Of a stretch of DNA of 64,000 nucleotides, positions 36,445-55,401 are shown piece by piece (the stretch's first letter is position 1; each line of letters begins with the position of its first letter). The notes under the pieces were generated by a model. That model was not told the origin of the DNA. It saw nothing but the letters and a program-made list of their open reading frames with translations, and did no database searches. This DNA is from Geothrix sp. SG200 (GTDB lineage: Bacteria; Acidobacteriota; Holophagae; Holophagales; Holophagaceae), in contig NZ_JAKZFR010000002.1 of NCBI RefSeq assembly GCF_022808935.1, forward strand, positions 434,001 to 498,000. Direction: 5' to 3'. The position numbers and the translations under genes are program-made.

Positions 36445-39400
36445 ATGACCCCCCCACGCCGGACCCTCGCTTTCCTTCTGTTCGCCTTGCTGGTGGGCCT
36501 CGTGCCCTGCAGCGCCGCGGACGCGCCCCGAACCTGCCAGGACTGCCACCCCAAGGTCCGCCAGGCCGCCGCTCCGGCGACAGCTCACAAGCCCCTGCTC
36601 GACGGAAAGTGCCAGTGGTGCCACAAGCCCCACGGCGCGGCGAACGTCAACCTCCTCCACGAGGGCGGCGGCCGGGCCCTCTGCGCCATCTGCCACAAGG
36701 GGTTCAAGCAGGCCGCCAGTGAGCGCCCGGCGCACCGCTTCGAGTCCAAGGGCGAGTGCGGGGCCTGCCACGGCGCCCACGACACGGGACGCAAGCGCCT
36801 GCTCCGGAAGGACGCGCAGGAGCTGTGCCTCTCCTGCCACGCGGACATCAAGGCCCGCACCACCTCGGCCCATCCCCATCCCGCGACGGACGACTGCCTG
36901 GCCTGCCACCAACCCCATCCCTCGGCCACGCGCAATCTGCTGAAAGCGGGCGTCCCGGGCCAGTGCGGCACCTGCCACGACCTGGCCGGTCTCTCGAAGA
37001 CCCACGGCGGCTTCCCGCTGAAGGCCGAAGCCTGCGCCACCTGCCACAACCCCCACGGTGGCGCGGCCAAGGGCCTCCTCCGCGACCGCGTGCACGCACC
37101 TTTCGCCCCGGGCTCCTGCGCCGACTGCCACGCGCCCGCCGCCGGCGGCGCCGTGAAGCTGGCGAAGGCCGTACCCGAACTTTGCCTGGACTGCCACGGC
37201 CCCCTGCCCGGCCCCGGCGTTCAGCACCAGCCGGCGAAGGACGGCGACTGCCTCACCTGCCACCGGCCCCATGCCGGGGACGCCAAGGGCCTCCTCACCG
37301 CCCCTCCCCAGGAGCTGTGCGCCAGCTGCCACACGGACCTCGCCAAGGGGAAGTCCATGCATCCGCCCTTCCGCGATGGCGCCTGCATGGACTGCCACCG
37401 CCCCCACGATTCGAAAGAGAAGGCCCTCCTCACCGCGCCCGCGAAGCAGCTCTGCCTCACCTGCCACGAGGATCTCGTCAAGGGCAAGAGCCAGCACGCG
37501 CCGGCCGCCCAGGGCGACTGCCTCGCCTGCCATGAGGCCCACGCCAGCGCCACGGCTCCCGTCCTGAAGCAGCCCGGAGAGACGCTCTGCGCCACCTGCC
37601 ACACGGGCGTGGCGAAGGGCGAGGTGGCCCATGCTCCGGCGAAGAAGGGCCAGTGCCTCGCCTGCCACACGCCCCACGCCTCCGATTCCGCCAAGCTCAT
37701 CAAGGGCGGCGAGCTGGCCGCCTGCGGCGCCTGCCACGAGAAGATCGTGAAGCGCAAGGTTCTCCATGCCCCGGTGAAGAACGGCCAGTGCAGCGCCTGC
37801 CACACGCCCCACGGCGGCGCGCTCGCGAAGCTCCTGAAGGACGACACGGAGAAGCTCTGCACCACCTGCCACGGCGACCTGATGAAGGGCGACGCCAAGC
37901 ACCAGCCCGCCACCGGCAAGCGCGGCTGCCTCGCCTGCCACGATCCCCACGGCGGCGACCAGGCCAAATTCCTCAAGCGCGACCAGCCCGAGGGCTGCTA
38001 CGCCTGCCACACCCGCAAGGACAGGTTCCAGGTCGTGCACTCCCCCGTGAACGATGGCCAGTGCAGCAGCTGCCACAGCCCCCACTCCGGCAGCGGGCCG
38101 GCCCTGCTGGCCTCCCCGAAGATCCAGGAGACCTGCGCCACCTGCCACGACCTCGCGGACGAGGCCCTGGGCCGCAAGCACCTCACCAGCTCGCTGGCGA
38201 AGGTGGACTGCCTGGGCTGCCACGAGCCCCACACCTCGACGAAGAAGGGCCTGATCCTCAAGGGCGCCCATCCCCCCTTCCTGGAGAGCTGCGGCAACTG
38301 CCACACGACGCCCGATCCCAGCGCCAAGCTCCCCGCCGGCACGCCCCGCCTGGACCAGCCCGTGCCCCAGCTCTGCCAGGGCTGCCACGCGGACCTGGAG
38401 CCCAAGGCCGGCGCCACCCAGCACCAGCCCTTCAAGGGCGGCGAGTGCCTGTCCTGCCACCGGCCCCACGCCTCGAAGAGCGAGTCCCTGCTGGAGAAGC
38501 CCGGCAGCCAGGTCTGCCTCACCTGCCACGAGAAGGCCGAGGCGCCCAAGGGCGGCTGGGCGCACAAACCCTACCTGGACGGCAGCTGCCGCGACTGCCA
38601 TGCGCCCCACCAGACCGAGACCCCCCATCTCCTGCGCCAGAAGACCCTCGACCTCTGCCTCACCTGCCACACGGCCATCGCAGCGGCGGTGAAGTCCAAG
38701 CACGCCCACCAGCCCGCTGCCTCCGGCGAGTGCCTCAGCTGCCACGGGGCCCACACGGGCAAGCTGGCCAAGGGCCTCCTCCAGCCCGTGGAGGAACTCT
38801 GCGTCAGCTGCCACGACGCCGGGGATCTGAGGAAGGCCCACAAGGGCTACCCCGTGTCCGCCAAGGACTGCGCCACCTGCCACGATCCCCACGGCTCCAA
38901 CAACGACGGCATGCTCAAAGCCACGGCCCACCCGCCGGTGGCGGAGGGCGGCTGTTCGACCTGCCATGCAGAACCCACCTCGGCCAAGCCCTTCGGGACC
39001 AGCGAGGCCCTGCCCGGTCTCTGCTTCAACTGCCACGACGGCGTCGCCGCGGCCGCCAAGAAGGCTTTCCCCCACCCCCCGGTGGCCAACGGCGAGTGCA
39101 CCGCCTGCCACACGCCCCACGCCTCCACCCGGCCTTCGCTCCTGGCGGGCAACCCCCGTGACCTCTGCCTCCAGTGCCACGACGGGCTGCGGGACGAGGC
39201 CAACAAGGCGGTCTCCCGTCACAAGCCCGTGATGGACGGCCAGTGCGCCACGTGCCACACGGCCCACGGCGGCGACGCCAAGGGCTTCCCCCGCGGCGAG
39301 GTCCAGACCCTCTGCCTGAGCTGCCACAAGGACAAGAAGGCCGGCCACCCCGTGGCCAACCATCCCACCTCAGGCCGCACCATCAAGGCCACGGGCAAGC

Positions 39401-39489
39401 CCCTCTCCTGCCTGTCCTGCCACCAGCCCCACTTCTCCAAGAGCCCCAAGCTCCTGGCCGTCAGCGGCTGCGACGCCTGCCACGGGTAG
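36445..39489 (+). CDS. 42-haem c-type cytochrome (doubled-CXXCH repeat protein)
   Basis: A 1,014-residue exported protein with a signal peptide (LAFLLFALLVGLVPCSAADA) and 42 CXXCH haem-binding motifs by hand count, about one per 24 residues from residue 30 to the last residues. They alternate between a CXXCHxPH form (as in CLACHTPHAS) and a CXXCHxD form (as in LCLSCHAD), the doubled-CXXCH module repeated about twenty times. Almost no sequence lies outside the modules. It is probably a periplasmic or surface electron wire. It is monocistronic, ends at a strong terminator, and faces the conduit operon. No lipobox or membrane anchor is seen. Confidence 0.93.
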   Translation: MTPPRRTLAFLLFALLVGLVPCSAADAPRTCQDCHPKVRQAAAPATAHKPLLDGKCQWCHKPHGAANVNLLHEGGGRALCAICHKGFKQAASERPAHRFESKGECGACHGAHDTGRKRLLRKDAQELCLSCHADIKARTTSAHPHPATDDCLACHQPHPSATRNLLKAGVPGQCGTCHDLAGLSKTHGGFPLKAEACATCHNPHGGAAKGLLRDRVHAPFAPGSCADCHAPAAGGAVKLAKAVPELCLDCHGPLPGPGVQHQPAKDGDCLTCHRPHAGDAKGLLTAPPQELCASCHTDLAKGKSMHPPFRDGACMDCHRPHDSKEKALLTAPAKQLCLTCHEDLVKGKSQHAPAAQGDCLACHEAHASATAPVLKQPGETLCATCHTGVAKGEVAHAPAKKGQCLACHTPHASDSAKLIKGGELAACGACHEKIVKRKVLHAPVKNGQCSACHTPHGGALAKLLKDDTEKLCTTCHGDLMKGDAKHQPATGKRGCLACHDPHGGDQAKFLKRDQPEGCYACHTRKDRFQVVHSPVNDGQCSSCHSPHSGSGPALLASPKIQETCATCHDLADEALGRKHLTSSLAKVDCLGCHEPHTSTKKGLILKGAHPPFLESCGNCHTTPDPSAKLPAGTPRLDQPVPQLCQGCHADLEPKAGATQHQPFKGGECLSCHRPHASKSESLLEKPGSQVCLTCHEKAEAPKGGWAHKPYLDGSCRDCHAPHQTETPHLLRQKTLDLCLTCHTAIAAAVKSKHAHQPAASGECLSCHGAHTGKLAKGLLQPVEELCVSCHDAGDLRKAHKGYPVSAKDCATCHDPHGSNNDGMLKATAHPPVAEGGCSTCHAEPTSAKPFGTSEALPGLCFNCHDGVAAAAKKAFPHPPVANGECTACHTPHASTRPSLLAGNPRDLCLQCHDGLRDEANKAVSRHKPVMDGQCATCHTAHGGDAKGFPRGEVQTLCLSCHKDKKAGHPVANHPTSGRTIKATGKPLSCLSCHQPHFSKSPKLLAVSGCDACHG

Positions 39490-39620: not shown

Positions 39621-41189
39621 TCAGCGCTTGTCCAGTTCCTGCGCCACCAGCTCCGCGCCGTGGACCTTCAGGTAGTCCACCCGCACGGCGTCCCGGCACT
39701 CGGCAAGGGGCATCACGGGGCCCTGACGCCGCTCCAACACGTTGAAGATCATGTAGCCATCAGGGCCCAGCATGGGGCCCAGCGGCTGGTCCACCGGCCC
39801 CTCGAGCATGGGCTGAAGCAACGTGGGGGGCACCAGCTTCCGGAGCGAGGCCACCTCGATCCACTCCGGTTCGGGGCGGTTGACAACCTCGGCATCCCCG
39901 TAGCGCTGCACGGTTTCCCGCCAGCTCAAGCCCGATCGGACCCGAGCCAGGGCCTCATTCACGCGGTCCTCCGAATCCGTCACGAGAACCTGGAGCCGCA
40001 GGGCCCCCACCTGGCGGAAGCGGTCGGGATAGGCCTCGTGGTGGGCCTTCAGATCCGAATCCGCCACCTTCGCCGTGGCCAGATAGGCCTCGGAGAACAG
40101 GGCATAGGCCTGCTGACGCTGGCTGGCCCACAGGGCACCGCGGACGGCGGGTCGGCGGTCCAGCCCCTTCGCTTTGGCTGCCGCGGCAAGGCGGATCGAA
40201 TCCGCGAGGCCTTCCATGAAGGAGGCCTTGGTGGCCGCCCCCAGGGAATGGCTCTGGCCCACGGTCTTCAGGGCTTCCGCGAGGTACTGCTTCGTGTCCC
40301 GCAAGGAGATCATGGCCCCCGCCACTCGGCCCGCGACGGCCTTCTCGTCACCAGGCTTGGGTTCCGTGGTCCGGTCCGACCCCAGGATCTTCAGATCGGC
40401 CTTGAGGGGATAACGCTTCCTCAGGTCCGTCAGGGTGGATTCCCGCTTCTGGGCGGCCAGGGCCTCGGCCATCTGCCGCATCCAGGTGTCCTTCACCGCC
40501 GGGAAGTCCTCGGCCTTGGGAGTCCGCACGGCGAACACCTTGGCCACGTGCCAGCCATACTCGGTCTTCAGCGGGCCGACCAGCGCGTCCACCGGAGCCG
40601 CAAACACTGGATCCCCGAAGGCCTCCACCAGCTGGTTTCGGCGAATCCAGCCCAGGTCGCCACGGTTCTTGGCCGCGCTGGGGTCGATGGAACATTCCGC
40701 GGCCACGGCGTCGAAGGCTTCGCCAGCCTGGATGCGCTTCTTGGCGCCGGCAGCTTCCTCCTCAGTCCGGCAGAGGACGTGCGAAATCTTGCGCTCTTCG
40801 CCCTGGTTCAGGAAGGCCGCACGGACCTGGTCCTCGGTCATGGTGTGGCCCGGCATGGAATCCAACCACGCCTTCCCGAGGACCTCCCTCCGGCTGCGCT
40901 CCAATCTCTCCCGGGCATCGGCCGTTCTCAGTAATCCCATGGCCTGGGCGCGCGACCAGGCCTTCTCCCAGCGGGCGGCCAGGGCCAGGACCTCCTTGGA
41001 GGCCATCGTGGGATTGGCGGCCTGAACGGCCTGCAGCTTTTCAGCCTCGGTCAGATCCTGGCCCGGTGTGGACTTCGGGGCCTTCGTCCTCTGGGGTCCC
41101 GCCTGGGCTACGGACACGAGCAGTAGGGCCGAGAGGCAGGCCGCCGTCCGGTTCGCCGGGCTGGGACACGGGGTGGATTCGGCTATCAC
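39621..41189 (-). CDS. SurA/PpiC-like peptidyl-prolyl cis-trans isomerase
   Basis: A 522-residue periplasmic chaperone-like protein. A signal peptide (LSALLLVSVAQA) precedes a SurA-type helical N-domain, a parvulin domain at about residues 120-250 (KISHVLCRTEEEAAGAKKRI, AKNRGDLGWIRRNQLVEAFG, VGPLKTEYGWHVAKV) and a second, diverged parvulin-like region near the C-terminus. The GTG at 41189 has AAGGAG five bases upstream, which decides the start over an upstream ATG. As last gene of the porin-cytochrome operon it probably helps fold the barrel or cytochromes. Confidence 0.85.
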   Translation of the reverse strand: MIAESTPCPSPANRTAACLSALLLVSVAQAGPQRTKAPKSTPGQDLTEAEKLQAVQAANPTMASKEVLALAARWEKAWSRAQAMGLLRTADARERLERSRREVLGKAWLDSMPGHTMTEDQVRAAFLNQGEERKISHVLCRTEEEAAGAKKRIQAGEAFDAVAAECSIDPSAAKNRGDLGWIRRNQLVEAFGDPVFAAPVDALVGPLKTEYGWHVAKVFAVRTPKAEDFPAVKDTWMRQMAEALAAQKRESTLTDLRKRYPLKADLKILGSDRTTEPKPGDEKAVAGRVAGAMISLRDTKQYLAEALKTVGQSHSLGAATKASFMEGLADSIRLAAAAKAKGLDRRPAVRGALWASQRQQAYALFSEAYLATAKVADSDLKAHHEAYPDRFRQVGALRLQVLVTDSEDRVNEALARVRSGLSWRETVQRYGDAEVVNRPEPEWIEVASLRKLVPPTLLQPMLEGPVDQPLGPMLGPDGYMIFNVLERRQGPVMPLAECRDAVRVDYLKVHGAELVAQELDKR

Positions 41190-41232
41190 GGGAACTCCTT
41201 GGGATGGAGGGCTGGATCCTTCGAGCTCTGGA

Positions 41233-42456
41233 TCAGTAACGGGCCTGGACATGGTCGTAGCCATGACAGGTGAGGGTGCAGGTCCCGTGGCCCATTCCCA
41301 ACCGCTGGAAGTTGGCGCCCCCGACGGAGGAGGCCGTGACCACCGATCGGTCGAACTCTATGAGGGAAGCCTGCCTGGGTGATCCGTGGGAGGCATGGCA
41401 GGTGGCGCAGGCGGTGGGCTCCCCGTAGCCGGGCTGGAGAGCCCCGCTCCGCCCGGGACGGAGATCGCGCGAGGAGCGGATTCCCAACACCGCAGCAGCT
41501 TCAGAAAGACCCGGTACCCGCCTCGGCGCCGCGGGACCGCCGCCCGTGAACCCGTTCAGATGCTGGCTGTGGTAGGGGAAGGACTGGTTCGTCAGGATGG
41601 ACGGCTTGTCGTGGCATAGGAAGCAGAGGTCGTTGACACGGTCCCCCAGCCGTCCGAGATCCTTTTCGTGTCCGAAGGGGGCCTTGAGGATGGCGGGATT
41701 GGCGGACACGTGGGGGCCCCGGGAACCCGAGGCATCGGGATTGTCGTGGCAGGAGGTGCAGTCGAGCCGGCCCTGGAAGACCGAGGAACGCAGGCTCGGC
41801 AGATCGGGGCGGTCCGCCATCGTGGCCCCGATCCGGTGCGAGGAGACGGCCCCCTTGTCGAACTGAGAACCCAGGTCACGGGTCCCGGAGGGGAGCTGGG
41901 CCGCGTCCTGGCCGGCGTGGCAACCAAAGCAGATCTCGGCCACGGCCTGCGGCCGCCGGTCCAGCAGCTGGCCTCGGGCATCGAAGGCGGTGGTTCTCAG
42001 CTTGCCGCGCTCCTTCCCGTGGGCCTCGTGGCAGCCCAGGCAATCCTGGGCCAGGCGTACGGTCCTGGATTGGCCGTCCCGCGCCGTACGGAGGTAGGAC
42101 TCGGCCCGCCTTGAGCTGAACCGCCCCTTCACATGCCCCGAGCCCTGGCCGCTCCAGGGAGACAGTTTGGGTGCGGCCTCCAGGCCAGGAAGGGTGGCCG
42201 AGCCCTCGTGGCAGGACAGGCACAGGGGCTCCGTGGCTGCCCGGACCAGCTTCGACTTGCCCGGCAGCGCACCCTTGCGATGGCTCATGTGGCAGGAGGC
42301 GCAGAGGCCATGAGACGTGGAAGCCCCGCTGCGGGAGGGCGCCTGGCCCGCGGCAGGGGCGGGCCGCCCCTGGGCCGCGAGGAGGCCCATAGCCCACCCC
42401 ACGATCAATCCTGTCTGGATGGCACGCGACCACTGGATGGAGAACGCCTGCCTCAT
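41233..42456 (-). CDS. multihaem c-type cytochrome (7 CXXCH plus one CX3CH)
   Basis: A 407-residue exported cytochrome. A hydrophobic N-terminus (TGLIVGWAMGLLAAQG) precedes seven CXXCH motifs (CASCH, CLSCH, CLGCH, CFGCH, CTSCH, CFLCH, CATCH). A C-terminal GTCTLTCHGYDH is a CX3CH variant that may bind an eighth haem. The count recalls the octahaem OmaB-type periplasmic cytochromes of Geobacter porin-cytochrome conduits. Its ATG overlaps the stop of the beta-barrel gene upstream (ATGA), as expected for subunits of one complex. Confidence 0.88.
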   Translation of the reverse strand: MRQAFSIQWSRAIQTGLIVGWAMGLLAAQGRPAPAAGQAPSRSGASTSHGLCASCHMSHRKGALPGKSKLVRAATEPLCLSCHEGSATLPGLEAAPKLSPWSGQGSGHVKGRFSSRRAESYLRTARDGQSRTVRLAQDCLGCHEAHGKERGKLRTTAFDARGQLLDRRPQAVAEICFGCHAGQDAAQLPSGTRDLGSQFDKGAVSSHRIGATMADRPDLPSLRSSVFQGRLDCTSCHDNPDASGSRGPHVSANPAILKAPFGHEKDLGRLGDRVNDLCFLCHDKPSILTNQSFPYHSQHLNGFTGGGPAAPRRVPGLSEAAAVLGIRSSRDLRPGRSGALQPGYGEPTACATCHASHGSPRQASLIEFDRSVVTASSVGGANFQRLGMGHGTCTLTCHGYDHVQARY

Positions 42457-44234
42457 CGCCAGTTCCTCACGCAGATGGTATCGAACAACCGCAGCAACTC
42501 TAGGTTGAGGTTGTCATTGCGGAACCCTCCTTCCGTGCGGGCCGTCTGGTAGCGGACGCGGAGGGATATCTGGCGGAAGATCAGGTCGGTCCACGCCGAC
42601 AGGGTGGTCATCGCCGGACTCCCCGAGGCCTGGGACCGCAGGGCGAGGGCCCCAATGGGGATTTTCCACAGCCGGCTGGTCACGCCCACGGAGTAGTAGC
42701 GGCTCTGGGTTCCGGTGCCCTCAAACCCCGGCGCGACGGCGTTCCCGGTCGGCGTCAGGGCAGGATCGCGGTGGCTGGTGTTGGCGCCCAGAGAGGCCGT
42801 CAGGGTGGTAGCACCCAGGCGGTAGGACCCCCTCGCGAGGACATCCGTGCTGCGCAGGTCCAGCCCCGGCTGGGCCAACCCCCGGTCGTGCCTCACGTCG
42901 CCCATCAGAAACAGCGTCAGATTGCCGCGGGTCTGGACCTGACCCGTCACCCGGGCCCAGTCCAGCACGCCATTCGTGCTGCTGTCGCTCATGCGCCAGA
43001 GGTCGGCCGTGAAGTCGAAGGTGCCGGACTGGCGCATCCGGCGCTGCAGCATCTCCTGAGCCAGCTCAGAAGGGATATAGTCCGGGGGATACTCGTCGCG
43101 CACCCGGCGGTCGTAGCTCCAATCACTGAGGAAGAACAGGCTGTTCCGGATCAGCTCGGGCACGCTGCCGCCCCGGGCGAAACCCAGGTTCAGTGAGGTC
43201 AGGTTCTTCGACGTGGCCAGGAGCGGGCTGTCCTGGCGGAGGGAGGAGAGCCCCACATCCCCATGGACCCGCCACTCAGGCGTAAGGCGGTAGGAGGCGC
43301 CTGTCAGGAAGGAGCCGATGCGGTTGCTCCACCCCTCGGAGGGCGTGTCGGCCTTGCTGTAGCTGCCCGTGGTGTGGGTGTGCCACTGCTCCCGCTCGTA
43401 AACCAGCGTTTCCGACGCGAAGGCGCTGTTGGTGCGCGTCGTGTCCGAGATGTTGGCGCCGGCGGACACCTCGGTCAGGGAATGCCATGCGCCTCTGATG
43501 GGGCCGTAGAAGGAGGCATTGACGTTCGACCACTGGTTGAGGCCTGAATCCTGGAACTGGGATCGTGTGCGGAGCTTCCAATCATTCGCCAGGAACGTGT
43601 CCGTATCCAGGGTCGCGGTGATGAACCTCCAGGCCTTCAGATCGAGAGGCACGTATTCCTGGCGGATGGCCTGGAAATCCACCTGCGTCGTCCTCGAACG
43701 GTGGTGGTTCTCGAGCTTCCACTCCGACCAACCCTCGCGGTAGGCATTGGGAGCATCACCCCCCTCCAGGTGGGTGTCCCCCTTCCGGTAGGAGAGGGCC
43801 GTGCTCCCCAGGATGCGGCTGCTGCCTTGCAGCCCGGCGCCCCAGGCCTCACCCTTCATGGAGCCCGAACCGAAGAGATCCGGCGACTGAGTGCGCTGGT
43901 AGTCGACGAAGAGCTTGATGGGCCGGTAGGGGAACAGGCTGATCCGGGCGCCGTAGCTCTGGATCCCGGTGATGGTATCCGACTCACTGCCGTAGGCCAG
44001 GCGGTTGTATTCCACGGCGCCGTTCAGGGCCAGGGCGCCTAGGCGGTAGGTGAAGACCGGCAGGCCCGCTTCCACCTCGTAGGTGGCCTGGGTGGCGGAG
44101 GACGAACCCAGCTGGCTGACCTGCCACTGGTCGTACCGCAGCCGGAACCGCTGGTTCAGCACCAGCGGGCAGTCCTCGGACCACGCGGCCACCGCCGCGC
44201 TCGCGAGCATCAAGGTGAGAAGGCGAAACTTCAC
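42453..44234 (-). CDS. outer-membrane beta-barrel, probable porin of a porin-cytochrome conduit
   Basis: A 593-residue exported protein with a signal peptide (LLTLMLASAAVAAWS) and many alternating amphipathic strands rich in Tyr, Trp, Arg and Thr, such as YRLGALALNGAVEYNRLAYG and WRFITATLDTDTFL. The length suits a barrel of twenty or more strands like MtrB or Geobacter OmbB. Cysteines occur near both ends (EDCPLVLNQRF and DTICVRNWR), but there is no MtrB-type CXXC. Start is GTG with GAGGGG upstream. Assignment rests on composition and on its coupling to the 7+1-haem gene. Confidence 0.75.
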   Translation of the reverse strand: MKFRLLTLMLASAAVAAWSEDCPLVLNQRFRLRYDQWQVSQLGSSSATQATYEVEAGLPVFTYRLGALALNGAVEYNRLAYGSESDTITGIQSYGARISLFPYRPIKLFVDYQRTQSPDLFGSGSMKGEAWGAGLQGSSRILGSTALSYRKGDTHLEGGDAPNAYREGWSEWKLENHHRSRTTQVDFQAIRQEYVPLDLKAWRFITATLDTDTFLANDWKLRTRSQFQDSGLNQWSNVNASFYGPIRGAWHSLTEVSAGANISDTTRTNSAFASETLVYEREQWHTHTTGSYSKADTPSEGWSNRIGSFLTGASYRLTPEWRVHGDVGLSSLRQDSPLLATSKNLTSLNLGFARGGSVPELIRNSLFFLSDWSYDRRVRDEYPPDYIPSELAQEMLQRRMRQSGTFDFTADLWRMSDSSTNGVLDWARVTGQVQTRGNLTLFLMGDVRHDRGLAQPGLDLRSTDVLARGSYRLGATTLTASLGANTSHRDPALTPTGNAVAPGFEGTGTQSRYYSVGVTSRLWKIPIGALALRSQASGSPAMTTLSAWTDLIFRQISLRVRYQTARTEGGFRNDNLNLELLRLFDTICVRNWR

Positions 44235-44326: not shown

Positions 44327-44992
44327 CTACTTGACGTGGCAGGTCGTGCAGAGCTGCGAGTTGGTCATGGTCATGCGCAGGAAGGGCGCGATCGTGTTGT
44401 CATGCACGCTGTGGCAGCTGGCGCACTCGACCTTGCCGCTGAACAGGGGCAGGCCGCCCACGTTGGCCGTGGTGCCAGTCCCCGTCACGGCATTCAGCTT
44501 GCTCGGCACCATCGCCGCCGAGGTGTCATAGGTGATGGTCACGGGGTGGTCGTTGCTCAGGTCGACGCCGAGGGCCGGAGCATTCAGGAGATGGCCAGTA
44601 GTCGCGTCCACGTTGGTGCTGCCGGTCAGGGTGCCGAGGCCGCCGGTGGGCATGTTGATGAGCTGGCCCACGGAGGAGGTGCCGTCGTGGCAGGTGAAGC
44701 AGGCCAGGCTGGCGCCCGTGGGCTGGCCAGCCACCTGGACCAGGGTGGCGCTGGTGTAGGGGATGAAGGTGGGGGCGGTGGTCGTGTAAGCGTTCCGGTT
44801 CCACAGGGGCTGGTTGGCCAGGACGTTGGTCCCGGTCGCGGCATTGTGCGGAGCGTGGCAGAACACGCAGACCTGGGTGGTCGTGTACTTGGCGCCGGCA
44901 CCGGAGGCACTCAGGTCATGCTTGGTGCCCTTGATGCCCGCGGACAGGCTCAGCGAGCCGGCGGCCAGGAGGACGACGAGAAGGGACTTCAT
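44327..44992 (-). CDS. tetrahaem c-type cytochrome
   Basis: A 221-residue exported cytochrome with a signal peptide (SLLVVLLAAGSLSLSAG) and four CXXCH motifs: CVFCHAPHN, CFTCHDG, CASCHSVHD and CTTCHVK at the C-terminus. The first and third pairs follow the doubled-CXXCH spacing. A Thr/Gly-rich stretch separates the first two. It could be a soluble shuttle feeding the conduit. GAGGTGAACC precedes the ATG. Confidence 0.88.
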   Translation of the reverse strand: MKSLLVVLLAAGSLSLSAGIKGTKHDLSASGAGAKYTTTQVCVFCHAPHNAATGTNVLANQPLWNRNAYTTTAPTFIPYTSATLVQVAGQPTGASLACFTCHDGTSSVGQLINMPTGGLGTLTGSTNVDATTGHLLNAPALGVDLSNDHPVTITYDTSAAMVPSKLNAVTGTGTTANVGGLPLFSGKVECASCHSVHDNTIAPFLRMTMTNSQLCTTCHVK

Positions 44993-45005: not shown

Positions 45006-45053
45006 GGTGGGTTGGGGGGGGGTGGGGGAAAGAGCGGGCGGCGAGAGCCGCCC
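45006..45053. promoter_or_regulatory. hairpin and G-run tract between NHL and tetrahaem genes
   Basis: GGGCGGC (45036-45042), GAGA loop, GCCGCCC (45047-45053) directly after the NHL gene stop, and a plus-strand tract with GGG, nine G and five G runs at 45009-45028. In the minus-strand transcript this is a stem followed by a C-rich leader before the cytochrome gene. Confidence 0.45.
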
Positions 45054-46114
45054 TATTGCGGGGTTGGAGAGGGGGATGCCTTCTCCTCGCGCAAATACTG
45101 GAACTTCTGGATGCGGCGGTTGATCTGGTCGGCCACGTAGATGCCGTCCGAGGCGTCGATGGCGATGCCGTTCGGCACCTGGAACTGGCCCTTGCGGGCC
45201 CCGCCCGCGCCGACGGGCAGGAGGATCTGGCCCGACTGGTCGAAGATCTGGAAGTTGCCGAAGGCGCCGTCCACCACGTAGAGGTGGCCCTCCGAATCCA
45301 CGGCGATGCCCTTGGGGCGGGCGAACTGACCGGCCATGTCGCCCACCTTGCCGAAGGTGCGGATGAACCGGCCCTTGTAGTCGAAGAGCTGGACGCGGAA
45401 GTTGCCCGAGTCCACCACCGCGAAGCCCAGGCCCGGAACCATGCAGGCGTAGGTCGGGTAGTTGAACTGGCCGTCGTCGGTGCCGCGGCCGCCTAGGGTC
45501 TTGATGAGTCTGAGGTTGCGGTTATAGAGGCGCACGGCATGCTCATCGCCGTTCACCACCACCAGGAGGTCCCGGGATTCGTCCACGGCCAGGCCCACGG
45601 GGCGCTGGATGCCATCCGGCCTGCCCACGGAGCTGAGCTGGTGCCCCTCCTTGTCGAAGACCACCACCTGGCTCGCGTTGGCGCTAGCGGCGTAGACGAA
45701 CTTGGAGTCCGCCGCGAGGCCCGTGGGCGAGGGCAGCACGGCACCAGCGATATCCGAGAACTTCCAGATCTTCTTGTTGGCGGGGTCCATGGCGATGACG
45801 CCCAGGTTGTAGTCGCCGACGAACATCACGCCCTTGTCATCCACGGCCACGCTGAGCGGCCGCTGGAGCCAGATCACGTCCTCGGACTTGCCGGCCAGGC
45901 GGTCGAGGAAGCTGCGCTTCTTCTTGGCGCCCACATCGAAGGCGTTGCGGTACTCGGCCACCCACTTGATGCGGGCGGGAGCGGGCGGCGGGGGCCAGGC
46001 CAGCACCTCGTCCTGCGCCACGGGAGGTGCGGCGGGTTTCTGCGCGGACAGAGGCGCCATCGCGCTCGCGACACACGCGAAGGCAACGGACAGCAGGGTG
46101 GAATGCTTGAACAT
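45053..46114 (-). CDS. NHL-repeat beta-propeller protein, exported
   Basis: A 353-residue protein with a signal peptide (LLSVAFACVASAMAPLSA) and about five to six NHL repeats, for example IQRPVGLAVDESRDLLVV, FARPKGIAVDSEGHLYVVD and FQVPNGIAIDASDGIYVAD, forming a beta-propeller. Such proteins accompany multihaem cytochromes in metal-reducing bacteria and may scaffold the complex. First gene of the leftward porin-cytochrome operon. ATG 46114 is preferred to 46156 because it starts directly before the signal peptide. Confidence 0.85.
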   Translation of the reverse strand: MFKHSTLLSVAFACVASAMAPLSAQKPAAPPVAQDEVLAWPPPPAPARIKWVAEYRNAFDVGAKKKRSFLDRLAGKSEDVIWLQRPLSVAVDDKGVMFVGDYNLGVIAMDPANKKIWKFSDIAGAVLPSPTGLAADSKFVYAASANASQVVVFDKEGHQLSSVGRPDGIQRPVGLAVDESRDLLVVVNGDEHAVRLYNRNLRLIKTLGGRGTDDGQFNYPTYACMVPGLGFAVVDSGNFRVQLFDYKGRFIRTFGKVGDMAGQFARPKGIAVDSEGHLYVVDGAFGNFQIFDQSGQILLPVGAGGARKGQFQVPNGIAIDASDGIYVADQINRRIQKFQYLREEKASPSPTPQ

Positions 46115-46421
46115 GGCTTGTTTGCCTCGTGGATGGCTTGCATCGGACAACGTCACAGGAACCTGTCAGCCGACCCTCGAACCATAGGGCCCATAAGCGA
46201 ACTACGGGTCATCTATTTTTGTGATTTTGATCATCTGGTTTTTTTTTCTTAGGGGCCTTTAAGAAACGATTGCTTTGTTGCAGCTCGCAACTGTTGCGTG
46301 TTACACGGCATAGATCATCTGCTTATCCTTAAACCTCATTCCGCCTTATGCTCCTGGTGTCCCGGACCTTCTTCCGAGGACTCCCCCCCCTCTGCACAGC
46401 CAGTTCCCTGGAGGTCATCCC
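46115..46421. promoter_or_regulatory. divergent control region of the two cytochrome operons
   Basis: A 307-base AT-rich stretch, in sharp contrast to the flanking genes, between two divergent NHL genes. It contains a T9 run at 46239-46247, the CRP-like site listed next, a GTTGC-N5-GCAAC dyad near 46277-46291, and GATCATCTG twice (near 46229 and 46313). It probably controls both operons together. Confidence 0.6.
46220..46235. promoter_or_regulatory. CRP/FNR-family-like site
   Basis: TGTGATTTTGATCATC matches the left half of the CRP consensus TGTGA-N6-TCACA and part of the right half (TCA). It also holds TTGAT as in FNR sites. The call is by eye and unproven. Confidence 0.35.
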
Positions 46422-47783
46422 ATGACCGGCCGGTCCATCCTTCGCCGACGCTGGGCCCTGTCCACGGCCCTCGCCTTCCTGTCCGGCCTCGGCCTGGCGG
46501 CCCAGGCCACGCTTCCCGTCGCCACCCCATTGCGCTCCTATGACAAAGGCTTCCGCGCGCCGGTACGCCTGGCCACGGATTCCGCCGGACGCCTCTTCGT
46601 GGCCGATCCCCGGCTGGGAGTGATCACGGTCCGCGACGAGGCGGGCCGGTTCCTCGGGGCCAAGTGGGGCTTCGCCCAGCCTCTCGGCATCGCCGTGGAT
46701 CCCTCGGGCCGCATCTTCGTCTGCGAGGCGGGCAAGGGGCGAGTTTCCATCTTCACGCCCGGCTGGGTGCCCGCGGGATACCTCGGCCAGGGCGACGGCG
46801 AGTTCCAGATGCCCAACCACCTCCAGATCACGCCGAACGGCCTGGTCTACGTGGTGGACAGCCAGGCCAACCAGGTGAAGGTCTACGGCCCTGGCAACCA
46901 GCTGGTACGCCAGATTGGGACGACCGGGGCCCTGGCTGGCCAGTTCAACTTCCCCACGGGCGTCGCAGTCGCGCCCTCGGGCGAGATCTTCGTCTCCGAC
47001 CAGGGCAACGAGCGCATCCAGGTCTTCGACGCCAACGGCACCTTCCTCCGGAAGTTCGGCGGCCTCCTCGGCATGATCGGAACCAACACCACCTTCGGCC
47101 GCGTGCAGGGGCTGCTCGCGGATGCCCAAGGGCGCATCTACCTGGCGGACTCCTTCCGCGGCGTGGTGGTGGTGGTCACTGCCACAGGCACCGTCCTGGG
47201 GAACCTGGGCAGCTTCGGATCAGATCCTGGCCAGCTTCAGGGCCCCGCCAGCTTGGCCATCGACCGGAACAACCGCCTCCTCGTGGCTGCGCCGGGCAAC
47301 ACCCGGGTGGAGGTCTATGGACTGGATGCCTACACCGATCCCCACATCCTCTCCGCAAGCCTCTCCGTGAAGCCCACCCAGCTGGTGCGGGAGAATCCCG
47401 AGGGCCGAGCCCACGCTCGTCAGTCCACCACCCGAGCCGTCCGCAACTGGCGGGAGCAGGATGACGGGATTCCCGGCGCCACCATGCGCCCCCCCCTGGT
47501 CTCTGTCCTCATCCGGATCCCCGGCGTGGATCCATCCACCATCCAGGGCGGCACCCTCACTGCCAACGGGGTGGCCGCCACCCGCGTCCCCGGAGCCTTC
47601 ATCGGGGACTTCGACCACGACGGATTCCTGGAATACCGGGCCTGGTTCGACCAGAACCGTATGCTGGCCACCCTGCCCGACGGGGACGCCTTCCTGGCGC
47701 TGTCGGGCAGGCTGAACGACGGGCGTACGTTCGAAAGCCTCGCTTTCGTGACCGTAATCAATCCGACCGGGAGCGCCCAATGA
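46422..47783 (+). CDS. NHL-repeat beta-propeller protein, exported
   Basis: A 453-residue protein with signal peptide (ALAFLSGLGLAAQA). Residues about 40-305 hold NHL repeats (FAQPLGIAVDPSGRIFVCEA, FNFPTGVAVAPSGEIFVSDQ, LQGPASLAIDRNNRLLVA). The C-terminal 130 residues form a different domain with an FIGDFDHDGFLEYRAWFDQN segment, resembling a Ca-binding dockerin-like or EF-type loop. It heads the rightward cytochrome operon; its stop overlaps the 13-haem gene (ATGA). GGAGGT precedes the ATG. Confidence 0.85.
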   Translation: MTGRSILRRRWALSTALAFLSGLGLAAQATLPVATPLRSYDKGFRAPVRLATDSAGRLFVADPRLGVITVRDEAGRFLGAKWGFAQPLGIAVDPSGRIFVCEAGKGRVSIFTPGWVPAGYLGQGDGEFQMPNHLQITPNGLVYVVDSQANQVKVYGPGNQLVRQIGTTGALAGQFNFPTGVAVAPSGEIFVSDQGNERIQVFDANGTFLRKFGGLLGMIGTNTTFGRVQGLLADAQGRIYLADSFRGVVVVVTATGTVLGNLGSFGSDPGQLQGPASLAIDRNNRLLVAAPGNTRVEVYGLDAYTDPHILSASLSVKPTQLVRENPEGRAHARQSTTRAVRNWREQDDGIPGATMRPPLVSVLIRIPGVDPSTIQGGTLTANGVAATRVPGAFIGDFDHDGFLEYRAWFDQNRMLATLPDGDAFLALSGRLNDGRTFESLAFVTVINPTGSAQ

Positions 47784-50374
47784 TCCGCCGCCTCGTCCTC
47801 CCCGTTCTCGCCCTTGGGCTCCTGCTCAGGGGTGAAGCTAGGCTCCTCGCCAGCGACCCGCCACACAACTCTGCAAACAACATCCAGTGCGTGAGTTGCC
47901 ACAAACTGCACAAGGCACCCGGCGGTACGCTCACCACCGTGAGCGGCAACGTGAACCTCTGCCTCAGCTGCCATAGCGACGGCGCCAAGGTTTCCAAGGC
48001 TCTTTACAACTCGGACCAATCCGTGCCCGCAAGCGCCAGCCTGGTGGGCTCCGCCGCCGGCGGCACGTCCCACCGCTGGGATTCCAGCGCCGCGGGGCGC
48101 CTCATCAAGACCACCAACAACTCCACCGCGACCATCACGCCTTCCGGCGACTACACCGGCGCCTACCCCGCCACCATCATGATCAAGGTCGATACCACCT
48201 TGGGCGCCACCACGGGCAAGGCGACGGTCACCTGTACGCAGACCATCGATGGCACCACCTGGACAGCCATCGGCACCTCCTTCACCACCAGCACTACTCC
48301 CCAGCTCCTGACGGGGACCGGCGTGTCCCTGGCCTTCTCCAGCACCGGCACCTTCGCGGCCAACGATGTCTTCTACCTCTACGTCCGACCCGACCTAGTG
48401 AACCCCACCTCGATCATGGCCACCCGCCTCGAGGGCGGGAAGATGATGTGCTCCACCTGCCACGACCAGCACCTGCAAGCGAACGCGCCCTTCGACCCGA
48501 CCGCCCCGGGCATCACCAGCGGCACCGGCAGCGCCGGCCGCCACTTCCAGCGGGTGAGGAACGACGACGGCTCCATGTGCGGCGACTGCCACGCCCCCCG
48601 CAACGTGGGCAAGGGTGGCACCTCCCATCCGGTGAACCTGCCCGTGGCAGGTGCGGCGAATACCAAGGCCCCCACCACCGTGCCCCTAACATCCAGCGGC
48701 AACGTCCACTGCCTCAGCTGCCACGACTTCCATGGGGCGCCCACTACCACCACACCCGCGGGCATGCTGCTGCGCGTGAGCAATTCCACGGCCCTCTGCA
48801 CCGATTGCCACACCCTGGCGGACACCACCACCGCCAATACCCACACCAACTCCACCAGCGGCATCCTCTGGCCCGGCGACGGGTACGGCGGGAGCACCTA
48901 CTATCCCTCCCCTGGCATTACGGACACCACGAAGCGTGGTGCATGCATGAACTGCCACACTCCCCACGGTTGGCCCGACGCCAACAACCCCGGTGGCAAG
49001 TACGCGAACGCCCTGGGAGCGGAGCAGGACAACCTCTGCGAGACCTGCCATGACGGCACCCCCGCCAAGGACGTCCGCACCCAGATCATCAAGACCTACC
49101 GCCACCCTGTGGACCGCAACAGCGGCCGCACCGTGGGTTGCGCCGACTGCCACAACCCCCACATGGCCGTCGCCGGCGTTCACGCCTATGGTGTGACCAC
49201 TCCGGCGATGACTGTGGATCGCAACCGCATCCGCACCGCGCCCGTGGCGGGGACGGCACCGACCGTGTACAGCGGAGCCATGAAAGGCGTGGATGGGGTC
49301 AAATTCAACTACTCAACAATCGCCAGCAACTGGGCGGTCCCCGTCGCCACCACCTTTTCTAAGCTTAATAGCGGAAATCCCAAAGGCTTCCTTGGCGCAG
49401 GAGGCACTGGAGAGACTGACCGTGGCGCCGAGTTCGAATACCAGGTCTGCTTCAAGTGCCACACCAGCTATGACTCGATGAATTCCACCACGAGCAGCAC
49501 CATCCTAAGGACGGTGGCCTGGGGCGGAGTCACCGCGCACTACAACGCCGGCACCGCCAAGTTCACCAACGGGAGCACCGCCGTCGTCGGCACCAGCACC
49601 ACCTGGACCACGTTCATGGCCGGCATGTACATCCAGAAGAACATCACCTCCCCGGCTTACCGGATCGCCTCCGCCACGGCCACCTCCATCACCCTGGCCA
49701 CCCCCTACGCGGGCACCACCGATGCTTCCGCGGCTGGTTACACCATCACCAAACAAGAGACCGATCTGGCTCAGGAGTTCAATCCGAAGAACGCCTCCTT
49801 CCACCCAGTGGTTGCGGGGGCGGCCGCCGCGGGAAGCGGCTCCAGCGCCTTGACCGCCGCCCAGATGAAGGCTCCCTGGGCTACCAACCTCGGCACCCAG
49901 ACCATGCTCTGCTCGGACTGCCACAACACGGAAGCCGCCTCACCGGCGGCCCAAGGGCCCCATGGATCGGCAAACAGGTTCATGCTCAGGGGCACCAACG
50001 TTCTTTGGCCGGCGACGACGGCGTTCAATGGCTCAACCCTCTACAACACCACCTTCTGTTCCAATTGCCACACCTATGCCTCAACCAATGTCGTCCACGC
50101 TGAACACACTGGCCGTTCCGCTTCGGGTAAAACCTTCACCTGCACCAGCTGCCACCTGTTGGTGCCGCATGGTGGCAAGCTGGGCCGCCTGATCGCCACG
50201 AATACTGCTGGCCTACCCAAACGGTACGCTGTGGATGGGGACTCGACGAACGTCTTGATTCGCGCTTTCGTTAAGGCGTCAACCCCAGGAGGGTACTCGA
50301 AATCCAATTGCGGATCCGCACAGAGCGGCTGTACCACCCATTCCCTGACTTCGAGCGCCTCGAACTCCTGGTAG
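47780..50374 (+). CDS. 13-haem c-type cytochrome with beta-domain inserts
   Basis: An 864-residue exported cytochrome with 13 CXXCH motifs by hand count, from CVSCHKLHK near residue 40 to CTSCHLLVPHG near 790. The signal peptide is PVLALGLLLRGEARLLA with no lipobox. Two Thr/Ser/Gly-rich beta-type segments without haems interrupt it, at about residues 110-205 and 575-660. A C-terminal SNCGSAQSGCTTHS holds two more Cys and a His. Size and haem number recall the surface OmcB-type cytochromes (12 haems) of Geobacter conduits. Surface location is inferred. Confidence 0.9.
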   Translation: MIRRLVLPVLALGLLLRGEARLLASDPPHNSANNIQCVSCHKLHKAPGGTLTTVSGNVNLCLSCHSDGAKVSKALYNSDQSVPASASLVGSAAGGTSHRWDSSAAGRLIKTTNNSTATITPSGDYTGAYPATIMIKVDTTLGATTGKATVTCTQTIDGTTWTAIGTSFTTSTTPQLLTGTGVSLAFSSTGTFAANDVFYLYVRPDLVNPTSIMATRLEGGKMMCSTCHDQHLQANAPFDPTAPGITSGTGSAGRHFQRVRNDDGSMCGDCHAPRNVGKGGTSHPVNLPVAGAANTKAPTTVPLTSSGNVHCLSCHDFHGAPTTTTPAGMLLRVSNSTALCTDCHTLADTTTANTHTNSTSGILWPGDGYGGSTYYPSPGITDTTKRGACMNCHTPHGWPDANNPGGKYANALGAEQDNLCETCHDGTPAKDVRTQIIKTYRHPVDRNSGRTVGCADCHNPHMAVAGVHAYGVTTPAMTVDRNRIRTAPVAGTAPTVYSGAMKGVDGVKFNYSTIASNWAVPVATTFSKLNSGNPKGFLGAGGTGETDRGAEFEYQVCFKCHTSYDSMNSTTSSTILRTVAWGGVTAHYNAGTAKFTNGSTAVVGTSTTWTTFMAGMYIQKNITSPAYRIASATATSITLATPYAGTTDASAAGYTITKQETDLAQEFNPKNASFHPVVAGAAAAGSGSSALTAAQMKAPWATNLGTQTMLCSDCHNTEAASPAAQGPHGSANRFMLRGTNVLWPATTAFNGSTLYNTTFCSNCHTYASTNVVHAEHTGRSASGKTFTCTSCHLLVPHGGKLGRLIATNTAGLPKRYAVDGDSTNVLIRAFVKASTPGGYSKSNCGSAQSGCTTHSLTSSASNSW

Positions 50375-50387
50375 TACGAGGCCATCC

Positions 50388-51671
50388 TTGAGCGTGACCT
50401 GGCTTCAGCGGCTGAAGCACTTCCTCATCTCCCCGGCGACCATCGTCGGGGATTTGGCCGTTATCACGCTCCTGGGAAGCCTCGGAGCCGCCTTGCCCCA
50501 GGCCGGCGTGGCTGCCGCCGCCGAGGTGGGGTGGCTGCGCCAGCACGGGCCCTTCCTCTCTTTCCTGGCGGATCACCTGGCCCTGGACCATGTATTCACC
50601 AGCCCGCCCTTCCTGGTCGCGCTGGGCTTCGCCACCGTGTCCCTGTCCATCGTGGTGGTCGAGCAGATCCGCCGCCTGGCCGCCCAGTGGAAACTCACCC
50701 CCACGGAGGGTGCCTTCCGCGGCGCCCCCTTCCGCGCGGAATTCACGCGGCCCGCCTCGGGGGCTGCCACGACGCTGCGGACCCGCGGTCGCCTGGGCTT
50801 GGCGGGCTCGCCCCTGTTCCACCTGGGCCTGCTCTGCGTAATCCTCGCCGGCGCCCTCCAGGCTCTCTTCGGCGTGAGCGCGGTGGTGGACCTCTACGAA
50901 GGGGAGGTGCTCCCGCCCGCCGTCGAGGCCTGGGGGGCCCAGTGGCCCGGGCCCCTGGGCTCGCCCTTCCGCCTGGAGACGCCCCTGCGCCTGGTGTCCG
51001 TGGAGAGCACACGCTACGGCGGTGGCGATCTGCGGACCCTCCGCCTGCGGTTGGCGGAGGTGACGTCGAACGGAGACCAGATGCGCGAGATGGGCATCAA
51101 CCAGGACCTGCCCGTGCCGCGGGGTCGCCTCTACGCGGACAACCAGCACGGCCCTGCGGCCCTGGTGGAATGGAGTCTCCCCGCCAAGCCGCCCCAGCGG
51201 ACCGCCATCCTGCTGGAGAAGAAGGAGGCCGCCGCCTTCGGAGCCTACTCTCAGGGGCCGGGTCACCTGCGCGCCCGCATCCGGGTGCCCATGCCCGGGG
51301 ATGGCAGCCGCCCCGGCCTGGCGGAGGTGCGCGTCCTCGACGGCCCCGCCACCCTGGCGGAGGGCCCCCTGCGGCCCGGCGAGAGCCTGCCCCTGCCCGG
51401 GGGTGGCGCGCTGAAGCTGCACGGCCTCCCCTACTGGGCCCGGCTCCACGGCAATCACGACCCTGCCATCGGGCTGGCCTACCTGGGCTTCGCCCTGGCC
51501 CTGACGGGAGCCGCCCTCACCTACGGGATCACGCGAGTGGACGAGCTGGTGGCCGTCACGCCTGAAGGCGAGTTCGAGAGGGTGGTAGTGGCCCTGCGGC
51601 CCCACCGCTTCGCCCCCCTGTTCCGGGAGCGGTTCGAGCGCCTGGTACGGGACCATGGAGGTGAGGTGTGA
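50388..51671 (+). CDS. ResB-like cytochrome c biogenesis protein
   Basis: A 427-residue membrane protein of the ResB/Ccs1 type: N-terminal helices (TIVGDLAVITLLGSLGAALP, PPFLVALGFATVSLSIVVVE), a third helix near residue 145 (LFHLGLLCVILAGALQALFG), a large periplasmic domain and a last helix near 370 (IGLAYLGFALALTGAALTYG). In System II it pairs with CcsA to move haem outward and attach it to CXXCH. A TTG at 50388 has GAGG six bases upstream; GTG at 50394 is an alternative. Similarity is moderate. Confidence 0.8.
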   Translation: MSVTWLQRLKHFLISPATIVGDLAVITLLGSLGAALPQAGVAAAAEVGWLRQHGPFLSFLADHLALDHVFTSPPFLVALGFATVSLSIVVVEQIRRLAAQWKLTPTEGAFRGAPFRAEFTRPASGAATTLRTRGRLGLAGSPLFHLGLLCVILAGALQALFGVSAVVDLYEGEVLPPAVEAWGAQWPGPLGSPFRLETPLRLVSVESTRYGGGDLRTLRLRLAEVTSNGDQMREMGINQDLPVPRGRLYADNQHGPAALVEWSLPAKPPQRTAILLEKKEAAAFGAYSQGPGHLRARIRVPMPGDGSRPGLAEVRVLDGPATLAEGPLRPGESLPLPGGGALKLHGLPYWARLHGNHDPAIGLAYLGFALALTGAALTYGITRVDELVAVTPEGEFERVVVALRPHRFAPLFRERFERLVRDHGGEV

Positions 51672-52213
51672 TCATGCGAATGTTCCTTGCCCTGGCAGTC
51701 CTGGCCCTTCCCCTGGGCCTCGGATGCTCGCGGGTGTCCTCCAGCGAGGCCAGGATGCTGGTGGCCCGCTACAACCAGGTGGTGAGCGAGGCCTACCGGA
51801 AGAACGATGTCCGTCTCATCGACGAGGTGGTGGGACCGGACGCGCCGGATGGCAAGCGCCTCCTCGGCCTCATCGGCGTGCGCATGGACATGGGCCTGAC
51901 CCTGGATGCCCGCCTGGAAGACCTGGAGGTGACGAAGGTCGAGCAGGCCGCCGACAGTCTCCAGGTCCACACCCGGGAGCAGTGGCGCTACCGGGATGTG
52001 CAGACCGCCACGGGCCGGCAGGTGGGCGAAGCCTCCGTGGACCACTACGAGATGCTCTACCGGTTCAGCTACCACAAGGGCACCTGGCTGGTGGAGGAGA
52101 CCAAGTTCACGGCACCACCCCAGGTGGGACGCAAGGAAGTCCCCTGGAACATCGACGCCAAGGATGCCCACGGCATGATCACCGCGCCCGCCACCCAGGG
52201 AGCAAAGCCATGA
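51668..52213 (+). CDS. lipoprotein of unknown function
   Basis: About 181 residues with a lipobox (ALPLGLGCSR) and a soluble alpha/beta domain, including SYHKGTWLVEETKF near the end. This pattern resembles NTF2/SnoaL-like small domains, but I do not recognise a family. It sits between ResB-like and CcsA genes with 4-base overlaps on both sides, so a role in haem delivery or apocytochrome handling is plausible. Starts GTG 51668, ATG 51674 and ATG 51680 are all possible. Confidence 0.7.
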   Translation: MIMRMFLALAVLALPLGLGCSRVSSSEARMLVARYNQVVSEAYRKNDVRLIDEVVGPDAPDGKRLLGLIGVRMDMGLTLDARLEDLEVTKVEQAADSLQVHTREQWRYRDVQTATGRQVGEASVDHYEMLYRFSYHKGTWLVEETKFTAPPQVGRKEVPWNIDAKDAHGMITAPATQGAKP

Positions 52214-53037
52214 GCCCCTTCTTCCAGGAGACTCTCCTCCACTGGACGGCCGTGGGCGTCTACGCCCTGGCCGCCATCCTCTTCGCCCACGCCCTGCTCT
52301 GGGACCACCCCGCGCGGGTCCGCTGGGCTCGCGGGCTCGCGGCCCTGGGCCTCCTGCCCCACGGGGCGGCCCTCGTCATCCGCTGGATCGAAACGGGCCA
52401 CGGCCCCTACATGCTGAAGTACGAAGTGCTGTCCTCCAACGCCTGGATCGCCATCCTCATGCTGCTCATCGTGCTGTGGCGGCGACCCCGCTGGGCGGGG
52501 CTAGCCCTAGTGGTCCTGCCCGCCGCGATCCTGATGATGGGCCTGGGCCTGCTGGCGAGCCCGGAAGCCAAGGAGCTGCCCCCCACGCTGCGGTCCATCT
52601 GGCTCGTCTTCCACATCTTCTTCACCAAGCTGGCGGTGGGGGCGTTCCTCCTCGCCTTCGCGGCCGCGGTGCTCGTGCTCCGCAAGCTCAAGGGCGCCAC
52701 CAGCCCCTTCCTCGCCCGGTTCCCGTCGGCGGAGGTCCTGGATGCCTCGATGATCCGCTTCGTGGGCTTCGGCTTCGTGTTCTGGTCCACCACCATCATC
52801 GCCGGCGCCATCTGGGCTCATCAGTCCTGGGGCCGCTACTGGGGCTGGGATCCCATCGAGACCTGGTCGCTCGTGACCTGGCTCTGCTTCGGCACCTTGC
52901 TGCACCTGCGGCTGTTCTACCGCCTGGGCCCGCGGGCCACGGCCTGGTTCACCATCGGCTGTTTCGGGGTTTCCATCCTCACGGCCTTCATCTTCCCCTT
53001 CCTCCTGCCCTCGCTTCACGCCGCCTACTTCCAGTGA
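52210..53037 (+). CDS. ccsA: cytochrome c biogenesis protein CcsA (System II)
   Basis: A 275-residue membrane protein with eight predicted helices. The tryptophan-rich haem-handling WWD motif is WGRYWGWDPIETWSLVTWL. Conserved His residues lie in VFHIFFTK and in IWAHQSWG. With ResB it forms the haem export and ligation complex, matching the demand of the 13-, 7+1-, 4- and 42-haem proteins next door. The ATG overlaps the lipoprotein stop. Confidence 0.93.
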   Translation: MSPFFQETLLHWTAVGVYALAAILFAHALLWDHPARVRWARGLAALGLLPHGAALVIRWIETGHGPYMLKYEVLSSNAWIAILMLLIVLWRRPRWAGLALVVLPAAILMMGLGLLASPEAKELPPTLRSIWLVFHIFFTKLAVGAFLLAFAAAVLVLRKLKGATSPFLARFPSAEVLDASMIRFVGFGFVFWSTTIIAGAIWAHQSWGRYWGWDPIETWSLVTWLCFGTLLHLRLFYRLGPRATAWFTIGCFGVSILTAFIFPFLLPSLHAAYFQ

Positions 53038-54651: not shown

Positions 54652-55401
54652 ATGTCCAGCGCCCTCTCCCTTCTTCTCTCCGCTTTCGTGATGGCAGGTT
54701 TCAGCCCAGCCGCCACGGCGGCCAACCCGCCTCAGGCTACCTCGCCCGCGCCCCACCCCACGGGAGCCCAGATCCCCAAGGGCGAGGACCTGACAGGCAA
54801 GGTGCTCGAGCGCCTCGAGGCTTCGCCCTACTGCTACCTCCGTCTAAAGACGGCCAAGGGCGAGGTGTGGACCGCCGTCCCCGAGGCCAAGGCCGAGAAG
54901 GGCGCCAACGTCACGGTCGCCAATGCCGTGCTGATGACGAATTTCGAATCCAAGACCTTGAAGCGGACCTTTGCTGAGGTCTACTTCGGCACCCTGGCCA
55001 CCCCGGGCACGGCTCCGGCAACCGGGGCCAATCCCCACGGCCAGGCCGGACGCCCCGCCAAGCCCGTGAAGGTCGGGAAGGTGGCCAAAGCCGCCGGCGC
55101 AGACGCCCGCACTGTGGCCGAGATCTGGGCCCAGAAACAGAACCTGAAGGGGAAGGGCGTCACGCTGCGCGCCAAGGTCGTGAAATACACCAAGGGCATC
55201 ATGGGCAAGAACTGGCTGCATCTCCAGGACGGCAGCGGCGACCCGAAGAAGGGCACGAACGACCTCACCGCCACCAGCCAGGCCGAAGTGGCCGTGGGCG
55301 ATACCGTGACCATCCAAGGCGTGGTCCAGACCGACAAGGACTTCGGCGCCGGCTACACCTACGCGGTGATCATCGAGGATGCCAAGCTGACCGGAAAATA
55401 G
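54652..55401 (+). CDS. secreted NrfJ-like OB-fold protein
   Basis: A 249-residue exported protein: signal peptide (LLLSAFVMAGFSPAATA), then two OB-like beta-barrel domains. The first (GKVLERLEASPYCYLRLKTA, then GEVWTAVPEA) resembles NrfJ-type proteins found near nitrite-reductase cytochromes; the second (LKGKGVTLRAKVVKYTKGIM, GKNWLHLQDGSGDPKKGTND) is a typical secreted OB domain. The ATG follows AAAGGAA. Position next to the cytochrome region fits a periplasmic metal or redox role, but this is inference. Confidence 0.7.
   Translation: MSSALSLLLSAFVMAGFSPAATAANPPQATSPAPHPTGAQIPKGEDLTGKVLERLEASPYCYLRLKTAKGEVWTAVPEAKAEKGANVTVANAVLMTNFESKTLKRTFAEVYFGTLATPGTAPATGANPHGQAGRPAKPVKVGKVAKAAGADARTVAEIWAQKQNLKGKGVTLRAKVVKYTKGIMGKNWLHLQDGSGDPKKGTNDLTATSQAEVAVGDTVTIQGVVQTDKDFGAGYTYAVIIEDAKLTGK

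Follow-up and report, generated by a model that had tools for sequence, protein, structure and literature searches.

A constant 42-haem cytochrome array, found as one chain or as a 26 + 16 pair in sampled Acidobacteriota, and its probable place in an outer-membrane electron conduit

The window analysed here is a stretch of 64,000 nucleotides from Geothrix sp. SG200, and at positions 36445-39489 (+) it holds a single open frame for a c-type cytochrome of 1014 amino acids. A scripted count returns exactly 42 CXXCH motifs, or 24.1 residues per haem (23.5 once the signal peptide is removed), in agreement with the initial annotation, which had claimed 42 motifs in 1,014 residues at about 24 residues per haem. 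Shuffling the residues of the protein yields a mean of 0.66 CXXCH motifs and a maximum of 4, and the sole cysteine outside a CXXCH is C22, within a Sec signal peptide predicted from the sequence and the orthologue alignment at residues 1-26 (36445-36522, +). The Paired_CXXCH_1 model of Pfam (PF09699) matches 22 stretches of the protein at 678 bits against a curated cut-off of 20.6, and the NCBIfam model TIGR01905 scores 632 against a curated 25.2. Neither Pfam nor NCBIfam finds a non-haem domain, the Pfam matches being limited to doubled-CXXCH and related cytochrome models, and the earlier statement that the protein has no other domain stands. Lipoprotein anchoring through C22 was considered and rejected, because the cysteine has no lipobox and is not conserved (Gly at loci L005 and L006). 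A scan for promoters and terminators gave no signal above chance.

When each CXXCH is written as b and each CXXCHxxH as A, the protein reads bAbAbAbAb/bAbAbAbAbAbAbAbAb/bAbAbAbAb/bAbAbAb, that is, blocks of 9+17+9+7 haems. The alternation of motif types along the chain that the initial annotation had described is strict except at three 'bb' joints, and the spacing between motifs is mostly 22-25 residues within blocks and 27-28 residues near joints. Block I (haems 1-9, bAbAbAbAb; 36523-37176, +) is defined by code and spacing, block II (haems 10-26, bAbAbAbAbAbAbAbAb; 37177-38361, +) ends where the 26-haem gene of split relatives ends, block III (haems 27-35; 38362-39015, +) begins where their 16-haem gene begins, and block IV (haems 36-42, bAbAbAb; 39016-39486, +) carries the last haem motif one residue before the C-terminus. 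Haems 1-9, 18-26, and 27-35 occupy near-equal lengths and align in register, with haems 10-17 lying between, an arrangement from which growth of the protein through duplication of a roughly 9-haem unit is probable. With its fixed motif code and no other domain, the protein also answers to the earlier picture of a regular haem array in a pure cytochrome.

Conservation among relatives is concentrated in the haem ligands. In alignments of 37-39 sequences, 84 Cys columns and 82 His columns reach a conservation of at least 95%, compared with 24 columns for all other residues together. For the first 26 haems, proximal and distal His in conserved columns number exactly 26 each, and the last 16 have 16 proximal and 15 distal His in fixed columns; between haems 40 and 41 a second histidine, present in 37 of 37 sequences, is a candidate ligand for the 42nd haem, and no plausible Met, Lys, or Trp column was found among the aligned sequences as an alternative. 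We infer the pairing of distal His to haem, and in the simplest reading all 42 haems would be bis-His and low-spin. Bis-His ligation at every haem would leave no open catalytic site, making the protein a conductor and not an enzyme. The same ligand count bears on the possibility that the protein is an extracellular filament subunit like OmcS, OmcE, or OmcZ, polymerising into a surface nanowire. The signal peptide marks it as secreted, it is haem-rich, and its similarity to OmcS is faint; however, each haem seems to own two His, so that a ligand supplied by a neighbouring subunit is not obviously required, known nanowire subunits carry 4-8 haems as opposed to 42, and the gene is tied to a row of barrel and isomerase genes. 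A filament is thus very unlikely.

In the window, the 42-haem gene has a 450 bp gap upstream and a convergent gene downstream, a SurA/PpiC-type peptidyl-prolyl isomerase (39621-41264, -; Pfam Rotamase) that is a conserved neighbour. There follow on the same strand a 7-haem cytochrome (41233-42456, -), the start of which overlaps the end of the next gene, a predicted outer-membrane beta-barrel of 593 aa (42453-44234, -), a 4-haem cytochrome (44327-44992, -), and an NHL beta-propeller (45053-46156, -; Pfam NHL). A second NHL beta-propeller (46422-47783, +; Pfam NHL) opens a divergent operon, in which it is followed by a large 13-haem cytochrome that is possibly a surface cytochrome (47780-50374, +), a ResB-like cytochrome c maturation protein (50388-51671, +), a small protein, and a CcsA/ResC-like cytochrome c assembly protein (52195-53037, +; Cytochrom_C_asm); System II cytochrome maturation genes lie near the 42-haem gene. 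The 13-haem operon has its own ResB and CcsA (50388-53037), perhaps a dedicated haem-attachment system. Directly 3' of the maturation genes is a B12-binding radical SAM protein (53109-54569), a linkage kept in L005 and L046, and a small lipoprotein-like gene akin to that at 54652-55401 of the window adjoins one group of paralogues of the 42-haem gene (L041:10363-10845, L044:16016-16564, L047:5431-5895, and L048:2166-2729).

The barrel is predicted from its amphipathic-strand score, with z of about 3 in nine barrel candidates against 1.8 or less in controls, and further from C-terminal sequences and weak porin matches. For the 593-aa protein these matches fall below the cut-off, no MtrB match was found by Pfam or PDB profile search, and none of the known conduit porin families is a good match for the barrels. 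A second predicted type, of about 700 aa, appears to contain an F5/8C-like (galactose-binding) insert and lies regularly near giant cytochromes (L053:657-2747, L033:15197-17380, L034:1677-3806, and L037:3178-5349); homology of the two types was considered and set aside, as no alignment joins them at the depth used.

Holophagaceae and Geothrix-type loci repeat the row of 42-haem gene, isomerase, 7-haem, barrel, 4-haem, and NHL genes, and in other families the usual split row is barrel, two LpoB/CsgG-like lipoproteins, isomerase, 26-haem, 16-haem, and NHL genes, often with a 6-haem cytochrome. The initial annotation had suggested that the 42-haem protein may cross the periplasm or extend outward from the cell; a conserved neighbour predicted to be a barrel favours an outer-membrane role for it. 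It could instead be a large periplasmic cytochrome feeding several reductases and unrelated to the outer membrane, and its gene in the window is indeed convergent with the barrel operon and outside it, a separate transcription unit, as would suit such a feeder. Outside Holophagaceae, however, the giant cytochrome genes share an operon-like row with the barrel, and this alternative is improbable.

Relatives were sampled by drawing 396 Acidobacteriota genomes and by two class-level searches. Holophagaceae, where the initial annotation had suggested looking for orthologues, do contain 42-haem orthologues, in Geothrix and in other genera: close ones in Geothrix are 86-93% identical, and those farther removed, whether within the genus or in other genera of the family, are 57-70% identical. 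The gene was found in about 10 of 46 members of Geothrix searched, and is therefore not essential to the genus; G. fermentans DSM 14018, which is in culture, has it. Seventeen single genes encode exactly 42 haems. One other (L013) encodes 43, with the additional CXXCH inside the 26/27 linker, and another (L032) shows 40, the first two being missing at a contig end. Pairs in which a 26-haem gene and a 16-haem gene lie side by side likewise number 17. These are divided between haems 26 and 27, their joined codes equal the code of the single protein, and their 16-haem proteins align from residue ~641 of the 42-haem protein. Haem 40 scores A, from a nearby His, in five members (L033, L034, L035, L090, and L091), with other positions unchanged. 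Contig ends truncate three further loci (L049, L060, and L099), and in genome G380 the 16-haem gene lies apart from a 26-haem gene that appears to be frame-shifted (L058, L059). By the family labels of the search tool, fused and split forms span 15 taxonomic families at 33-93% identity, 33% being the lowest identity to the window protein among code-sharing relatives. The tree requires one or two changes between fused and split forms, with weak support for the placement of L035. In the one scan of genome contigs that reached beyond Acidobacteriota, L007 and L008 were the only matches from other phyla.

Related cytochromes of other sizes were seen in the same material. A 21-haem cytochrome with the constant code bbbAbAbbAbAbAbbAbAbAb is found at six Acidobacteriota loci (L051:1066-2886, L052:3154-4968, L054:7558-9411, L055:5832-7679, L064:7046-8821, and L067:6615-8414), with NHL, 4-haem, isomerase, and 7-haem neighbours resembling those beside the 42-haem gene. 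Another has a constant 13 haems (L062:4916-6256, L063:7252-8559, and L065:7251-8567), and the first ten motifs of a 38-haem paralogue (L039:9245-12250) give the code read for decahaem MtrA.

The constancy of the array must be weighed against the idea of a periplasmic electron store, or capacitor, that would hold up to 42 electrons and buffer respiration, its length being irrelevant. A high haem density suits charge storage, as suggested for PCC3-type proteins (PMC10734462; PMC7399161). However, modules could come and go in a store, and here haem number and order have stayed constant between deeply diverged relatives that differ at most other positions, making a store rather unlikely.

A wire-like function of the 42-haem protein is likely. 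AlphaFold2 gave unreadable models both for the full-length sequence, aligned with four close orthologues (pLDDT 29), and for the 9-haem block of haems 27-35, with the internal blocks as alignment (pLDDT 45); we infer a continuous haem chain through the protein. The favoured reading, which we hold to be reasonably probable, is that the protein is the secreted, fixed-length haem wire of an acidobacterial outer-membrane electron conduit, with MtrA-like modules and a Uet-like organisation. One secreted chain would carry 42 low-spin bis-His c-haems in its four blocks of MtrA-like doubled modules; electrons arriving on the side of the inner membrane or periplasm would enter one end of the row, hop from haem to haem, and exit the opposite end to the outer-membrane barrel and the small cytochromes, with Fe(III), humics, electrodes, or partners as potential final acceptors beyond the barrel. 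The 26- and 16-haem proteins of relatives would dock end to end where they are fused here. Fusion of neighbouring genes at a fixed point without an added linker is a classical sign of docking proteins, and as the fusion in this case lies at one such point, an identical row of 42 haems is expected from the 26+16 form. The scheme presumes bis-His haems throughout, docking of the two proteins end to end, an extended shape, the direction of electron flow, and the location in the envelope.

The layout of OmcS allows about 8 Angstrom per haem, and a 42-haem row spaced in this way would be about 30 nm long. Because this exceeds the length of PCC3 proteins of 21-27 haems, for which a reach across the periplasm has been considered feasible (PMC10734462), the analogy suggests that the 42-haem wire may cross the periplasm and also enter the barrel. 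A more tentative proposal, possible but on balance doubtful, is that of a haem ruler, in which selection would fix the wire to one constant distance from the inner-membrane side to the barrel; the 26-haem part would cross the periplasm, the 16-haem MtrA-like part would enter the barrel, and the full row would be kept as one chain or two.

Geothrix-type bacteria live in soil and sediment. Geothrix reduces Fe(III) through an electron conduit about which little is understood, and the protein is a candidate for it. Very long haem wires known from sequence vary in haem number, from which length seems unimportant. With an exact 42-haem row kept across the phylum, little but the ligands conserved, and one natural cut point, whether the cell envelope sets wire length becomes directly testable. 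Furthermore, the 26+16 split offers biochemists and cryo-EM workers a system that already comes in two parts.

Among known systems, the MtrA/DmsE proteins share with the 42-haem protein the doubled module CXXCH...H..CXXCHxPH, and a 7-haem stretch of block III aligns to Shewanella MtrA (6r2q_A) at 8e-17 (the kinship is also given as 1e-16). MtrA, whose structure is solved, serves as a wire within a barrel of the outer membrane. In contrast to the 42 haems found here, the MtrA/DmsE decahaem family has ten haems per unit of ~260-330 aa; the NCBIfam models for DmsE (TIGR03508) and GSU2203 (NF041028) match only 8-10 partial stretches, and the decahaem model total passes its cut-off only through the summing of 8 stretches. 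Where MtrA systems have an MtrB-type barrel, the barrel-like neighbour here is not recognised as MtrB.

The PCC3 cytochromes (He et al. 2017, PMC5566968) are comparable in haem number and density. With up to 85 haems and a median of 26 residues per haem (range 22-39), they tell in part against the earlier view that very few cytochromes are this haem-dense. They have median haem numbers of 34 and 21, are porin-linked, and have been proposed as wires, and their haem number varies from 10-35 in Gallionellaceae to as many as 85 elsewhere (PMC5566968); other published large cytochromes carry 40, 49, or 51 haems (PMC7399161, PMC6344600). PCC3 consists of an extracellular and a periplasmic giant cytochrome with a porin. 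The split relatives also have two giant cytochromes and a predicted barrel, yet their pair together equals the single fused protein. The five-helix inner-membrane protein of PCC3 (WX3HX13H motifs) was not noticed among the neighbours. PCC3-like pairs lie at L007:7350-12748 (24+39 haems, a Desulfuromonadales MAG) and L008:8046-14056 (23+55, a Bacteroidetes MAG); their 39- and 55-haem homologues lack CXXCHxxH and are 22-24% identical to the 42-haem protein, and this difference in code speaks against PCC3 membership, which was considered on account of these two loci.

The Uet system of Tenderiales and Gallionella (PMC10734462) keeps similar company, with doubled-CXXCH, tetrahaem, peptidyl-prolyl isomerase, barrel, and NHL genes. 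A gene set of this type is present in the window and in relatives, a likeness of gene company only: UetJ has 11-12 haems, against 42, 13, 7, and 4 here, and the window cluster has no trihaem gene as a counterpart of the three trihaem UetDEG. The DFE_0448-0465 clusters of D. ferrophilus likewise place multihaem cytochromes beside NHL propellers, with no porin-cytochrome conduit apparent (PMC9769857). Giant dense cytochromes (PCC3 and others), the MtrA module, and the Uet gene company are thus known; no description of a fixed 42-haem array or a 26+16 split in Acidobacteriota was found in the open-access papers searched, and the constancy of this array across sampled Acidobacteriota, separable as 26+16, is the strongest feature of the system, one that the initial annotation had overlooked and that, as judged against those papers, is new.
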